Assembly (NCBI GenBank): GCA_017548505.1
Contig: JAFYZX010000110.1
Coordinates: 1 to 42,054, forward strand
Origin: Bacteroidales bacterium
GTDB lineage: Bacteria > Bacteroidota > Bacteroidia > Bacteroidales > UBA932
DNA length: 42,054 nucleotides
Reading direction: 5' to 3'
The translations under genes were made by a program, and so were the position numbers. The notes below the pieces were generated by a model that saw only the letters and a program-made list of their open reading frames with translations, did not search any database and was not told where the DNA came from. Positions within the stretch are counted from its first letter, which is position 1. Each line of letters starts with the position of its first letter. Shown one piece after another: positions 4,550 to 10,622 of this stretch.

Positions 4550-6847
4550 TTATCCTAATAATTTGCTGACGGCAGCGGCGTCCAGAGCCCAGTTGTAAGT
4601 AAATCTGAGGGCGGGGTCTGCGTCATTTTCTTTGTCTGTAATTGTAAGGTGCTGGGCCTGGGCCTTAAGCTGGAGGAGCTCCCCTACCTTGAGCTTGTTT
4701 TTAAGGCGGCGGAGAAGGGAGTCTAAGGCAGAAGTGTCCAGTTTGCCAACAACCTGGGCGGTGAAAGGCATCTCCAGCCAGGTAATTTCCCGATTGTCAA
4801 TGTCCAGAACGCCGAATACAAGGCCTTTTTCAAGGTTGCCTTCACTGATGCGGACAATGTGCTGAACGGTGGAAGGATCGTAGGCAACACCGGTCTCGTT
4901 GGAGATGGTCATAGGGAAGGCGGAATTCATCCAGCCTACCATCAGGTTCGGGGAAATGGCACCGTGGGAATAGGCGTTGCAGGAAAAGGCAACGAACTTG
5001 GCACCTGTTTCCTGGAGTTCAGGAATGGTGAGCTCGATGTATTCCGCGGTGCCGACCTGGTCCGGGATGTTGCGGATGTCTCCGGAATGCTTTGCACCGG
5101 GAAGGGAGAGGTTGAAATAACCGCAATCCTCCCTGTGACCGTCCTTGTAGCAGATGGCAACGCTAAGGTCCATATCCAGATGCTGGGCCTTGAGGCCGAC
5201 TCCCCACTGCATGAACAGGCGCACGGCATCTCCCTCAACCTGGAAGCGGGTGCCCTGAAGGGCGGCGGAAGCATCCTGAATGGAGGATGACCTGTCGCCG
5301 ACACTAACGGGGATGTCGTAGAGGGCCTTGTCTATGAAGATCTTACCGCTGGTGGAAGAAAGGTCTTCTTTTTGGAAGCGGCTTGTCATGGCATCCTTGT
5401 AGAGGCTCCAGACGGAACGCTTGAGGGATTCTCTCTGCTCAGGGGTGAAATTGTCCAGCTTCTTGTTGTAAGGTATGGACTTGGTGCTTCCCGTAAGCGG
5501 ACGGGCAATCCTTTGGGCATCGGTGTCAAAGTAAAGGTCTGCGGCGTTTGCAAGGGAAAGGACCAGACGAGGCGGAACCTTGTCCAGAATATCCCTGAAA
5601 GCCTGGATTGTTGGATTTGGGCCGAGCCTCAGCATAATGGAGAAGAGGCTACGGGCAAATGTGCCTGGCCGCTGCTTCAGGAGGGCCAGGGCCTTATTGT
5701 AATCCACGCAGCCGCAGTTGATGCCGAGAGCCTTGTCCAACTGGCCTTTCCAGACAGAATAATCGTCCTTGTAGAAAGTGTCCAGAAGACGGTTCAGGCG
5801 CTCGTAGCCGGGTTTACGGGAATATTCGCCGAGGCGGAGTTCACGAATCATCCTTACCCACATTCCCCTCTTTGGATGCATAATCTCGCAAGCCTCGTCC
5901 GCATCCATTTCCAGGGCGTTAAGCCACTGGGCTACAGTGCGGCAGGTTTTGCGGTCGTACTTAAGCTTGAGGTTCTGCTTCATCACCGCCTCAGCCTCCT
6001 TGGTTTTGTCCAGGGATGGCCACATGTGGGAGTTCAGTTTGCCGGCGTGCTTTATCAGGACCTTTGGTTCCAGTATCTGCGTTTTCTTCGTTTTCTTGTA
6101 CCAGAGGTAGCGGAGGATATCTGCAGGGCTTGTAAGGTACGGGATGGCGGCTTCCGCCCTGTCTGCCTGGACAAGGGCGTCTACCACATACATTCTGGTT
6201 TCCTTCATTCCTATCTCCACTCCTTCCGGAAGCCCAAGGGCAACTATCAGAGTCTTGAGGCTCTCCGCCTGGGTGCCGTCCAGGGGAACGGTGGATTCCA
6301 GAAGGGAAAGCTTAAGGTTTTCAAGGTCCTGGAGAGTCATTAGCCTCAGCGATTTCTTCTTTGAGCCCTGGCCCTTGTAGACATAGTTTGAAGTCTTGAA
6401 CGGGGTGCCGCAGAACGGGCAGCCGTTGTACCTTTCGAGAGGGAAGGTTCCGTCCGGGATGAAATGCCCGCAAGGGAGCGTAGTGCCGCTCATGTGGTCC
6501 CTGCCGCCAAGATAGTTTGCATAGAAGGTTATGCAGTGGTCTATGAAGGACTCTCCGGTTGGAGTGTCCCAGCCCTTGACAAGGGGCATCCAGTTGAGGT
6601 TGATGCCCAGGGCGGTGTCTATCGCTGCTGTAATATCGCCGAGATAAGATTCGGGAACTGTCTTGAGGGCTGCCAGAAGGTCTTCCTCCGCGACATAGCC
6701 TTTTTCAGAGAGGCTGAGAAGGAAGGCGGCAAGTTCCCTGGAGATTTCCCGGGTGTGGGAGAGAGCCTTGCGGTCCACGTCTGCAAAGATGGCGTTATAT
6801 CGCAGAGCTACCGCCAGAAGCTTTTTGTTTCTGTCTGTCGTTTCCAT
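4550..6847 (-). CDS. Large protein with RING-like zinc motif and TerD-like domain
   Basis: 765 residues from the ATG at 6847 (METTDRNKK); the open frame reaches 6901 but that extension falls in the structured leader. The N-terminal third is helical. It carries LPCGHFIPDG at 124-133 and NGCPFCGTPF at 141-150: Cys126-x-His128 then Cys143-x2-Cys146, a compact RING or zinc-ribbon pattern. A helical middle (about 165-530) follows. Residues about 535-690 resemble TerD: DMDLSVAICYKDG then GAKHSGDIRN (His587 to Asp590), recalling the H-x-GD-N motif of TerD calcium-binding folds. I recall a RING-containing family named after MXAN_6230/SCO0854 with this layout. The cellular role is not established; TerD relatives act in tellurite, phage or stress responses. 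No signal peptide, so probably cytoplasmic, unlike the two lipoproteins downstream. Confidence 0.8.
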   Translation of the reverse strand: METTDRNKKLLAVALRYNAIFADVDRKALSHTREISRELAAFLLSLSEKGYVAEEDLLAALKTVPESYLGDITAAIDTALGINLNWMPLVKGWDTPTGESFIDHCITFYANYLGGRDHMSGTTLPCGHFIPDGTFPLERYNGCPFCGTPFKTSNYVYKGQGSKKKSLRLMTLQDLENLKLSLLESTVPLDGTQAESLKTLIVALGLPEGVEIGMKETRMYVVDALVQADRAEAAIPYLTSPADILRYLWYKKTKKTQILEPKVLIKHAGKLNSHMWPSLDKTKEAEAVMKQNLKLKYDRKTCRTVAQWLNALEMDADEACEIMHPKRGMWVRMIRELRLGEYSRKPGYERLNRLLDTFYKDDYSVWKGQLDKALGINCGCVDYNKALALLKQRPGTFARSLFSIMLRLGPNPTIQAFRDILDKVPPRLVLSLANAADLYFDTDAQRIARPLTGSTKSIPYNKKLDNFTPEQRESLKRSVWSLYKDAMTSRFQKEDLSSTSGKIFIDKALYDIPVSVGDRSSSIQDASAALQGTRFQVEGDAVRLFMQWGVGLKAQHLDMDLSVAICYKDGHREDCGYFNLSLPGAKHSGDIRNIPDQVGTAEYIELTIPELQETGAKFVAFSCNAYSHGAISPNLMVGWMNSAFPMTISNETGVAYDPSTVQHIVRISEGNLEKGLVFGVLDIDNREITWLEMPFTAQVVGKLDTSALDSLLRRLKNKLKVGELLQLKAQAQHLTITDKENDADPALRFTYNWALDAAAVSKLLG

Positions 6848-8222: not shown

Positions 8223-8447
8223 ATGAAATTCAGATGGTTCAGAAATTTCCTCAAAGGCTGCTCCCTGACGACTGCCTTGTTTGTGTTTACAGCTTGTTAC
8301 GGAACCCCTCAGGGCTACAAGATGGAGGAGCCTGTAGATGAAGAGGAAATCGTTTCGGAAGTAACGGAACAGGACAGCACCGTCACTGTGGATGATGCTC
8401 AGACCGAGAAAACCGCAAGCGCAGAGCCAGAAGAGGGTAAAGGATAA
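8223..8447 (+). CDS. Short lipoprotein of an rSAM/lipoprotein system
   Basis: 74 residues. A basic, hydrophobic start (KFRWFRNFLKG then SLTTALFVF) ends in TACYGTP, with Cys25 as the likely lipidated residue although -3 is Phe. After the cysteine come Tyr-Gly and then a very acidic tail (EEPVDEEEIVSEVTEQD and so on) ending EEGKG. Its stop codon overlaps the start of the radical SAM gene (TAATG, shared A at 8447). Short length, the CYG motif directly after the lipobox and an adjacent SPASM radical SAM enzyme match what I remember of TIGR04134/TIGR04133, the rSAM/lipoprotein system of Bacteroidota, whose chemistry is undetermined. The lipoprotein may be the enzyme's substrate. The acidic tail could equally serve as a recognition segment. 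Confidence 0.8.
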   Translation: MKFRWFRNFLKGCSLTTALFVFTACYGTPQGYKMEEPVDEEEIVSEVTEQDSTVTVDDAQTEKTASAEPEEGKG

Positions 8448-9538
8448 TGAATCCCCTCCTTTTCCGGCAGTTCCGCAAGCTCGAGACTAATGTTCACGAG
8501 CTTAATTATCTTTTCTGGGAATGTACTCAGCGATGCAATCTCTCCTGCAGGCATTGCGGGAGCGATTGTTTTACATCCGCCAAGGATCAGGACATGCCTC
8601 TGGAAGATTTCCTGAAGGCTCTGGACACAATTCCGAATACGCCCAAGATTAAATCGTCAAAAAAATCCTCCCAAAAGAATAACGTAGACCGCCTCATAGT
8701 TGTACTGACCGGAGGTGAGCCTCTTCTGAGGCCTGACATAGAGCAGGTTGGAAAGGAAATATCCAAAAGAGGATATTATTGGAGCATGGTTTCCAACGGC
8801 TTCTTCTACACGGAAGAAATGCACCGACGCCTGATGGCCGCCGGCCTGAAGGCAATAACTTTCAGCTTGGACGGAATCGGAGACACCCATAACTGGATGA
8901 GAGGCAATTCCAAGAGTTACAGTCACACAATCAAAGCAATAGAAATTGCCTCAAAGGAAAAGTATCTGGATCTTGATGTAGTCAGTTGCATCAACCGCCG
9001 CAGCATTGGCCAACTGGAAGAGATATACCAGACTTTATTATCGTTAGGAGTAAAAAAGTGGAGGCTTTTCACCATTATCCCTATAGGCAGGGCAAAAGAT
9101 GATCCTCAGATGCATCTGACAAACTGTGAAATGGTTCGCCTGATGGATTTTATCGCTGAGAAACGCTCTAAAACCTCTACATTGGATGTAAGCTTCAGCT
9201 GCGAGGGATATCTTGGAAGATATGAGGAAAAAGTGCGTCCTGTGCGCCATTTCTGCCACGCCGGAATCAACATAGCGTCCGTGCTGATAGACGGCCGCAT
9301 CTGCGCCTGCCCGAACATAGACCGCGATGTCTTCTCCCAGGGCAACATCTACAAAGACAACCTCTACGAAGTCTGGGAGAAAAAGTTCCAGGCTTTCCGC
9401 AACCGGGACTGGGCCCGCAAAGGCATCTGTAAAGACTGCCGCCAGTGGCGCAACTGCCTCGGAGGCGGAATGCACAACTGGCACGGGGACTGCTCCCAGG
9501 TTCTCAGCTGCCACTACCGCCGCACCGGAAACCGATAG
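8447..9538 (+). CDS. Radical SAM/SPASM enzyme of the rSAM/lipoprotein system
   Basis: 363 residues. The radical SAM motif C-x3-C-x2-C is CNLSCRHC (Cys30, Cys34, Cys37), with an extra Cys26 just before. VVLTGGEPLLRPD is the SAM-binding GGEP strand. A barrel follows, with FSLDGIGDTHNWMRG. The C-terminal SPASM/twitch region has CHAGINIASVLIDGRICACPN, then Cys328, Cys331, Cys337, Cys349 and Cys355, enough ligands for one or two auxiliary iron-sulfur clusters. Such enzymes modify ribosomally made peptides or partner proteins; no product is known for this subfamily. A Lys/Ser-rich insert at about 67-80 (KIKSSKKSSQKNN) is unusual. The gene starts by TAATG overlap with the lipoprotein gene, implying translational coupling, and is followed by a strong bidirectional terminator. 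Confidence 0.9.
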   Translation: MNPLLFRQFRKLETNVHELNYLFWECTQRCNLSCRHCGSDCFTSAKDQDMPLEDFLKALDTIPNTPKIKSSKKSSQKNNVDRLIVVLTGGEPLLRPDIEQVGKEISKRGYYWSMVSNGFFYTEEMHRRLMAAGLKAITFSLDGIGDTHNWMRGNSKSYSHTIKAIEIASKEKYLDLDVVSCINRRSIGQLEEIYQTLLSLGVKKWRLFTIIPIGRAKDDPQMHLTNCEMVRLMDFIAEKRSKTSTLDVSFSCEGYLGRYEEKVRPVRHFCHAGINIASVLIDGRICACPNIDRDVFSQGNIYKDNLYEVWEKKFQAFRNRDWARKGICKDCRQWRNCLGGGMHNWHGDCSQVLSCHYRRTGNR

Positions 9539-9737: not shown

Positions 9738-10622
9738 TTACTTTGCTTCAGCTTCTTTTGGGCAGTCCTTGTGCTGGCCATCGCACTCTGGCTTTCCTTC
9801 CGGGCAAGCCTCACCGTGATGAGGATGTTTAGGGCCCTTAGGTCCGTGGAAGAAAGGAACGGCCTTGGTTGCAGGGAATGCCTTGCTCCAAGCCTTCAGA
9901 GCCTTGCCGTCTGCAGCCTTGATTTCCTTAACCTGCTTTACGCTGATTTCAGGAACTGCAATCTCAGGGCACTTCTCAGGCTTTCCTTCCTTGCACTCAG
10001 GCTTTCCAGCCTTCTCGCACTCATGCTTGGTGGAATCGCAAGCTGCTTTCTCGCAGTTCTCGTGGTTGCCTTCGCACTCTGGCTTTCCAGCCTTCTCGCA
10101 CTCTGGTTTTGCCTCTGGGCATTCAGCCTTGGTGGAATCGCACTCAACGCCTTCGCAAGCCGGCTTCTCTGGGCAAGCCTTCTTCAGAAGGATAACTACA
10201 AACTGTCCATCAACGCTCTTAGGGCCTTCGCACTCTGGCTTTGCCTCTGGGCAAGCCTTTGTGGAATCACACTCGTGCTTTGGAGCTTTCTCCTCTGGGC
10301 AGCACTCGTGGTTATTAGCCTCGCACTCCTTTGGATCCAGTCCGCAGTCGTGATGCTTTTCAGCCTTGGTGGAATCGCACTCCGGTTTTGGCTCCTTGTC
10401 CGTTACGAACACGTTCTCGATTTCCTGTCCCTCGATCTGGAAAGCGTCTGCTGTAACGCTCTCTGCAGATACTGCCTTTGCATACTTTACTACAACTGCT
10501 GCAGGCTGTCCGTCTGGACCTGCAACAAGGGCGGTTACGCTCTCAGGCTTTGCTGAGCAAGCAGAAAGGAGAAGGCCGGCAGCGGCTACTCCGATCACTG
10601 AAACGATAATGTTCTTTTTCAT
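9738..10622 (-). CDS. Cysteine-rich repeat lipoprotein, possible metal binder
   Basis: 294 residues with a lipoprotein signal (lipobox LSAC, Cys22). Three pieces look like one ordinary secreted domain: residues 29-77 (VTALVAGPDGQPAAVVVKYA, then AFQIEGQEIENVFV), 137-148 (VDGQFVVILLKK) and 222-262 (VPEISVKQVKEIKAADGKAL). These are interrupted by low-complexity inserts at about 78-135 and 150-220, plus a tail from 265, made of Cys, Glu, Lys, Pro and His: PEC(E/D), CDSTK, KACPE, ECEKAGKPEC. In all there are 23 cysteines, nearly all flanked by Glu, Pro, Lys or Asp rather than paired as CxxC. Inserts of this kind suggest metal chelation or a modified, cross-linked surface. No family is recognised with certainty. 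It has its own promoter and is convergent with the radical SAM gene. Confidence 0.8.
   Translation of the reverse strand: MKKNIIVSVIGVAAAGLLLSACSAKPESVTALVAGPDGQPAAVVVKYAKAVSAESVTADAFQIEGQEIENVFVTDKEPKPECDSTKAEKHHDCGLDPKECEANNHECCPEEKAPKHECDSTKACPEAKPECEGPKSVDGQFVVILLKKACPEKPACEGVECDSTKAECPEAKPECEKAGKPECEGNHENCEKAACDSTKHECEKAGKPECKEGKPEKCPEIAVPEISVKQVKEIKAADGKALKAWSKAFPATKAVPFFHGPKGPKHPHHGEACPEGKPECDGQHKDCPKEAEAK
10000..10103 (-). repeat. 23-bp direct repeat inside the cysteine-rich gene
   Basis: The same 23 bases occur at 10000-10022 and 10081-10103, encoding ECEKAGKPE-type peptides. The 81-base offset is a multiple of three, so recombination between copies would remove or add 27 codons in frame. 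Shorter near-copies lie elsewhere in the gene. Confidence 0.8.

Follow-up and report, generated by a model that had tools for sequence, protein, structure and literature searches.

Metallothioneins are small, cysteine-rich proteins with metal-cluster motifs of the CxC and CxxC kind, CxC being the typical one. The copper storage protein Csp1, which is exported and carries a Tat signal, is described as a preformed four-helix bundle (PMC7558416). Obligate anaerobes tend toward excluding cysteine from their exported proteins, according to a second published account (PMC12453122). The gene considered here encodes a cysteine-rich lipoprotein and lies in a window of 42,054 nucleotides, the whole stretch of DNA analysed, which is a contig of a 2.0-Mb draft genome (86% complete) of a Bacteroidales bacterium. 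Among the papers that our literature searches listed, judged by titles or the beginnings of abstracts, none describes this cysteine-rich lipoprotein.

The gene occupies exactly 9738-10622 on the minus strand, starts with ATG and encodes 294 residues, an Ig-like core with arms that carry a ladder of cysteines. A first-pass annotation had placed an ORF with 23 cysteines here, and coordinates and translation agree with it: one cysteine belongs to the lipobox (LSAC, followed by S) and 22 lie downstream. The gene has galE as its divergent neighbor and a radical SAM/SPASM gene as its convergent one, and its product has a single match in its own genome at E<=1. In a comparison of 99 core codons from 11 genomes, substitutions are distributed 378/218/1818 among the three codon positions and the sense-frame pN/pS is 0.126, from which it follows that the minus-strand frame is real; the core is under purifying selection. 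The corresponding ratios for the antisense frames are 1.73, 0.27 and 3.46, and a long ORF on the opposite strand (9771-10556, plus) is best read as a by-product. Elsewhere in the window, a 662-residue ORF (878-2866, plus), which resembles an AlbA-type ATP-binding transcriptional regulator, contains stretches rich in Ser and Thr that are encoded by 12-bp repeats and by a 54-bp repeat (GTIKPDDVILKSDDVILN), with repeats at 2173-2280 and 2526-2657.

Residues 1-22 (10557..10622, minus strand) form a signal peptide and lipobox. The lipobox is recognized by pattern and Cys22 is invariant in 12 orthologues, so the N-terminal signal, lipobox and invariant cysteine of a bacterial lipoprotein are all present. 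In the Bacteroidota, acidic residues directly behind the lipid cysteine are a surface-export signal. The window protein, which reads CSAKPES at this point, has no acidic stretch there; a periplasm-facing position is thus at least as likely as the surface location originally suggested, which is left without support. Its cysteine content stands out among lipoproteins. At the loci examined there are 71 lipoprotein-like ORFs, 18 of them cysteine-rich members of the present family; the other 53, which include one truncated family member and maybe insertless homologues too, have a mean of 1.05 cysteines per 100 residues and a median of two cysteines, against 8.1 per 100 in the window protein.

An ordinary domain split into three segments by cysteine-rich inserts had been proposed from the window protein, and most of the columns invariant among 12 orthologues do fall in three stretches, at residues 26-75, 138-150 and 220-263. 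The segments themselves, all on the minus strand, are residues 29-77 (10392..10538), residues 137-148 (10179..10214), a strand reading VDGQFVVILLKK, and residues 222-262 (9837..9959), which begin AVPEISVKQVKEIKAADGKALKAWSKAF. The protein passes the Pfam gathering cut-off for PF18435, EstA_Ig_like (33.3 bits against 26.7), with segment 1 forming the first half of the domain. At E<=1, each of the 12 genus members scanned has a PF18435 match, as do 13 of 13 rows of a wider alignment at E<=0.1; seven of seven further genus members, when rescored, gave 29.0-40.8 bits, all above 26.7, making eight of eight with the window protein. Positions 34-151 of a profile built from the wider alignment (A3) align with PDB entry 3doh at E=0.0009, while a PDB search with profile A1 gave no match at E<=1. 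Together, the PF18435 and 3doh matches indicate that the three ordinary segments are one EstA-type Ig-like domain interrupted at two loops, with arms in both loops and at the C-terminus. Neither Pfam nor NCBIfam yielded any hydrolase family for the 294-residue protein at E<=1, and there is no attached esterase domain of the kind found in EstA. One longer relative (G305) does combine the PF18435 domain with a weak Peptidase_S9 match.

Low-complexity arms fill loop 1, loop 2 and the C-terminal tail of this core. In the window protein, arm 1 (residues 78-136; 10215..10391, minus) has eight cysteines in modules such as CDSTKAE, CPEAKPE and HDCGLDPKECEANNHECC; arm 2 (residues 149-221; 9960..10178, minus) has 11, in CEKAGKPE, CDSTKHE and others; and the histidine- and cysteine-containing tail (residues 263-294; 9741..9836, minus) has three and ends in HPHHGEACPEGKPECDGQHKDCPKEAEAK. 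Among 12 genus members, one of them truncated at a contig end, the gap from one cysteine to the next is exactly seven residues in 127 of 248 cases and five to eight in 187 (75%), against a mean of 23% and a maximum of 35% in 1000 trials of random cysteine placement. The single, regularly placed cysteines described in the first-pass annotation are therefore real, while its spacing of five to nine residues gives way to this sharper one. The repeat approximates C-[DPEK]-x-x-K-x-E, with CDSTKAE, CPEAKPE, CDKAKAE and CDGQHKD as recurrent modules. The 329 cysteines of 14 genus members include a single CxC and five CxxC, a spacing neither disulfide-rigid nor of the CxxC type, and the initial impression that the protein is unlike disulfide-rich or CxxC zinc proteins holds. 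Several members have a local motif, HDCG(M/L)DPKEC, in common, and EANNHECC often comes after it. Scans of members against Pfam and NCBIfam gave no family above cut-off across the arms, whose composition suggests disorder.

Orthologues differ in the order and number of modules and in loop length (36-113 residues in the window's genus), whereas the core is strongly conserved; the few positions invariant among the 12 orthologues outside the core, in the arms and tail, are C82, D83, K86, H269 and C273. Within single genes there are 118 module pairs with an identical six-residue peptide. In this comparison, which is conditional on peptide identity, the DNA differs in 108 of the pairs, with all 256 differences at third positions, so that most module copies are not freshly slipped.

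Carriers are concentrated in the window's genus. A relatives search matched 14 of 61 genomes, namely the window's own, 13 of 36 same-genus relatives and none of the 24 taken from the rest of the order. The galE locus of G152 revealed one more, bringing the known carriers in the genus to 15 of 39 genomes, a set that includes one genome (G153) from outside the 61-genome search; in one carrier (G036) the copy is split over two contigs. Eight relatives, all among the same-genus genomes already counted, are Bacteroidales or Bacteroidia MAGs, four of them from rumen or omasum (water buffalo, yak twice, and goat). Family-wide searches found matches in only two of 25 genera, and an order-wide search with A3 (393 genomes in 207 genera, most from other families) matched the window's own genome only. 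A search of 119 genomes with PF18435 gave one match at E<=1e-5, and was insensitive, missing known members including the one in the window's own genome. Near the cysteine-rich gene in two carriers are long lipoprotein-like ORFs (G152, L088:10346-12826, plus; G019, L084:12569-14473, plus) with periodic cysteines (CY..MF..C..L..AP.LPATTLA), which resemble BspA-like leucine-rich repeats.

The second genus, g46, belongs to the same family. The same core was found in 21 of 220 g46 genomes at E<=1e-4, and four more from the family-wide searches bring the total to 25. As anticipated in the first-pass annotation, the core occurs both with and without inserts: 13 of the 25 homologues are insertless, with 154-164 residues and one to four cysteines in total, and eight are full cysteine-rich members. 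Loops of 12-22 and 20-24 residues were measured in the eight of 13 insertless proteins that could be parsed. The cysteine-rich g46 proteins use other modules, with CGEKHE repeats and CC doublets (43 CC and 11 CxxC among 205 cysteines), and they place them differently: in loop 1 and tail in G782, in loop 2 in G877, and in loop 2 and tail in G855, G801, G851, G313, G817 and G742. When two of them were rescored against PF18435, G782 passed (27.3 bits) and G313 fell below the cut-off (21.8). Two further homologues fill the same places with low-complexity sequence that is not cysteine-rich. G278 (L143:1393-2175, plus), in which we found no lipobox, has Gly/Met/Pro-rich filler in the loops and tail, and G320 (L131:1075-1761, minus) has a Pro/Gln loop and a Met/His/Arg tail; such Met/Gly/Pro-rich or Met/His filler is possibly an alternative set of soft-metal ligands on the same scaffold. 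The remaining two of the 25 matches (G854 and G857) are cut by contig ends and stand outside these classes.

In a core tree, 22 cysteine-rich and 10 non-cysteine members are separated by one split with support of 95.2/97. The tree is unrooted and based on 79 columns; it holds 32 of 37 sequences from a regex-based core alignment, five non-cysteine members that could not be parsed (G253, G370, G337, G278 and G769) being absent, and branching inside the cysteine-rich side is partly weak. The 22 full members have 218-365 residues and 12-37 thiols per chain after the lipid cysteine, or 6.9-11.0 cysteines per 100 residues in the 14 members from the window's genus and 5.9-15.1 in the eight from g46. 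Of 677 cysteine-containing 6-mers in one genus and 533 in the other, 21 are common to both; 200 composition-keeping shuffles yield a mean of 3.5 and a maximum of 11, while two halves of the window's genus have 165 in common. Judged by sequence, the arms of the two genera are thus not wholly unrelated, a few short phrases such as GEKPEC being common to both while most of the arm sequence is not. Given the single cysteine-rich split and the presence of cysteine-rich members in both genera, the alignments indicate that thiol density has been conserved while most of the module sequence, the spacing and the site of insertion have turned over. This combination argues against fixed disulfides, against CxxC or zinc-finger folds, and against drift.

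Tentatively, and at a little less than an even chance, we propose that the protein is an envelope-anchored thiol-array sink, with soft metal ions as its most likely, putative ligand. The compact EstA-type Ig-like domain would serve as a lipid-anchored scaffold in the envelope, bearing flexible, highly charged arms with a ladder of mostly single cysteines. These arms would form an unstructured thiol or thiolate array, a sink of high capacity and low specificity, probably for Cu(I), Zn(II), Cd(II) or similar ions, and the many Glu and Asp residues and the tail histidines may assist in binding. From 12-37 thiols, if these are free, a capacity of perhaps five to 10 ions per chain might be expected. 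Selection would maintain thiol density and solubility, with no fold and no fixed cysteine pairs to preserve, and for this reason modules could be duplicated, lost, reshuffled or moved between loops. Among the neighbors used as baits (asnS and udk, both named by eye, a TonB-like gene, galE, the radical SAM gene and an AI-2E-type transporter), we recognized no metal transporter or regulator, and no regulatory block is conserved in all 12 aligned upstream regions.

We considered whether the arms might instead be structured domains whose fold is set by a particular arrangement of disulfides or zinc sites, for which the recurrence of HDCG(M/L)DPKEC could speak. As a general description this is contradicted by cysteine number, spacing, order and loop position, all of which vary; the rigidly conserved disulfide spacing that the first-pass annotation named as evidence against its own reading was not found among the homologues, and we give a structured arm very little credence. 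Neutral expansion, in which permissive loops gathered slipped repeats without function, is somewhat easier to entertain, since the repeats are partly tandem, the loops vary widely in length, and G278 and G320 have non-cysteine filler in the same loops. It is disfavoured, however, and we regard it as quite improbable: there is one cysteine-rich split, cysteine density is kept in both genera though most modules differ, and many module copies have diverged synonymously with their peptides unchanged, so the inserts do not simply vary at random. A more serious contender, though still an unlikely one, is a redox or crosslinking array, with cysteines that scavenge oxidants or form intermolecular disulfides knitting lipoproteins together when oxygen intrudes, metal being incidental. 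A ladder of thiols on flexible arms suits random crosslinking, and thiol density kept with little sequence conservation fits a redox array equally well. The number of cysteines after the lipid cysteine is even in 14 of 22 members, and in 11 of 14 from the window's genus, which are close kin; it is odd, however, in eight of 22 (three of 14 in the window's genus and five of eight in g46), and strict pairing is accordingly not needed. VKOR, the oxidase searched for, was found in none of the 15 known carriers and in two of the 39 genus genomes, both non-carriers as far as is known, which speaks weakly against such an array since the drafts are incomplete. While the sequences compared contradict any fixed pattern of disulfides or zinc fingers, occasional or intermolecular disulfides are possible.

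A further alternative involves the convergent neighbor, a radical SAM/SPASM protein (8447..9538, plus strand) matching TIGR04133 with 451 bits (cut-off 425), which is preceded by a gene for a small, 74-residue lipoprotein with a CYGTP motif (8223..8447, plus). The arms might be a substrate of this enzyme, receiving thioether or other marks on their repeated CxxxK-type modules before export. In support of this idea, a radical SAM gene of the window's type is present in 15 of 15 known genus carriers (67-100% identity where full length, 75-87% for pieces) and in two of 24 other genomes (G024 at 65% and G013 at 56% identity). It is directly adjacent in nine carriers (by a contig end in G036), one gene off in G021 and G028, and about 3 kb off, beyond galE, in G003. 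On a different contig, however, are the radical SAM genes of G019, G030 and G152, and in G024 the gene stands beside galE without any cysteine-rich lipoprotein. The carriers also have the most similar galE genes (80-100% identity) and look like close kin, so the co-occurrence may reflect descent. In other genera, 14 loci have the radical SAM gene without a nearby cysteine-rich gene (bait cut-off E<=1e-8), 12 of them with the small lipoprotein. None of the eight cysteine-rich g46 loci has the gene in the stretches examined, some of which are short contigs, and three of these eight genomes (G313, 96% complete, and G801 and G742, both 80%) have no TIGR04133 match at E<=1e-60; a TIGR04133 gene is nevertheless found in 21 of the 25 core-bearing g46 genomes, with or without cysteine arms. 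An obligate partnership is ruled out by G024, by the loci in other genera and by the g46 carriers without the enzyme, and the modified tail envisaged in the first-pass annotation is therefore no general requirement. The enzyme may act on the cysteine-rich lipoprotein in some species, though it is dispensable for the family. We consider the substrate reading improbable, and favour the metal sink ahead of the redox or crosslinking array, with the radical SAM substrate behind both.

Several features around TIGR04133 genes deserve mention in their own right. On C101 of the window's own genome, two lipoprotein-like ORFs (L073:4555-5058 and 6287-6730, both minus) flank a higher-scoring TIGR04133 enzyme; each has Y-G-(T/C)-P soon after the lipobox, like the CYGTP of the window's small lipoprotein, which makes YG[TC]P a candidate target of the TIGR04133 enzyme. 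In G024, small ORFs resembling a DUF3990 or toxin-antitoxin-type cassette take the place of the cysteine-rich lipoprotein gene between galE and the radical SAM gene (L090:1873-2829). A graspetide survey describes small proteins whose genes lie immediately upstream of those for SPASM enzymes and regards them as possible auxiliary factors (PMC8939145). The 74-residue lipoprotein occupies that position, which we treat as a lead only.

If the metal-sink reading is correct, the family represents an undescribed envelope thiol sponge, an Ig scaffold with rapidly reshuffled cysteine ladders that would act as an extracytoplasmic metal (or thiol-redox) buffer of anaerobic Bacteroidales with no need of a fixed fold or CxC/CxxC clusters; our confidence in this again stops somewhat short of an even chance. 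Strict anaerobes are reported to avoid exported cysteine (PMC12453122), yet these envelope lipoproteins carry 12-37 thiols per chain, a load that is exceptional in light of that tendency. Since a chemical property is kept while sequence turns over, the family offers a natural experiment on the evolution of disordered metal- or redox-active arms, with the insertless relatives as a ready-made control for the role of the thiols.

The proteins compare with known systems as follows. Their core is the same domain as the Ig-like N-terminal domain of the Thermotoga maritima esterase (PF18435; PDB 3doh), although the window protein differs from EstA in being a stand-alone lipoprotein without the esterase domain and in having cysteine-rich arms in two loops and a tail. 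The window's convergent neighbor is a member of the TIGR04133 radical SAM/SPASM proteins with a lipoprotein partner, but the cysteine-rich lipoprotein is found without the enzyme and the enzyme without the cysteine-rich lipoprotein. Bacterial metallothioneins such as SmtA and MymT, as described in a published account (PMC7558416), are alike in very high cysteine content and in the thiolate metal binding proposed here. They differ in that the present proteins have a lipobox, an Ig scaffold, few CxC or CxxC motifs and 218-365 residues rather than a small size. With one CxC and five CxxC among 329 cysteines in 14 members of 267-365 residues, and with no match to a metallothionein family in the proteins scanned against Pfam and NCBIfam, they do not qualify as metallothioneins. 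With Csp1 they have in common export and many cysteines per chain, but their cysteines lie in the repeat arms of a lipoprotein rather than in a preformed four-helix bundle, the latter as described in PMC7558416, and scans of the window protein against Pfam and NCBIfam gave no Csp family at E<=1. Belonging to neither group, the protein, with its putative metal binding, would nevertheless function in the way that metallothioneins or copper storage proteins do.
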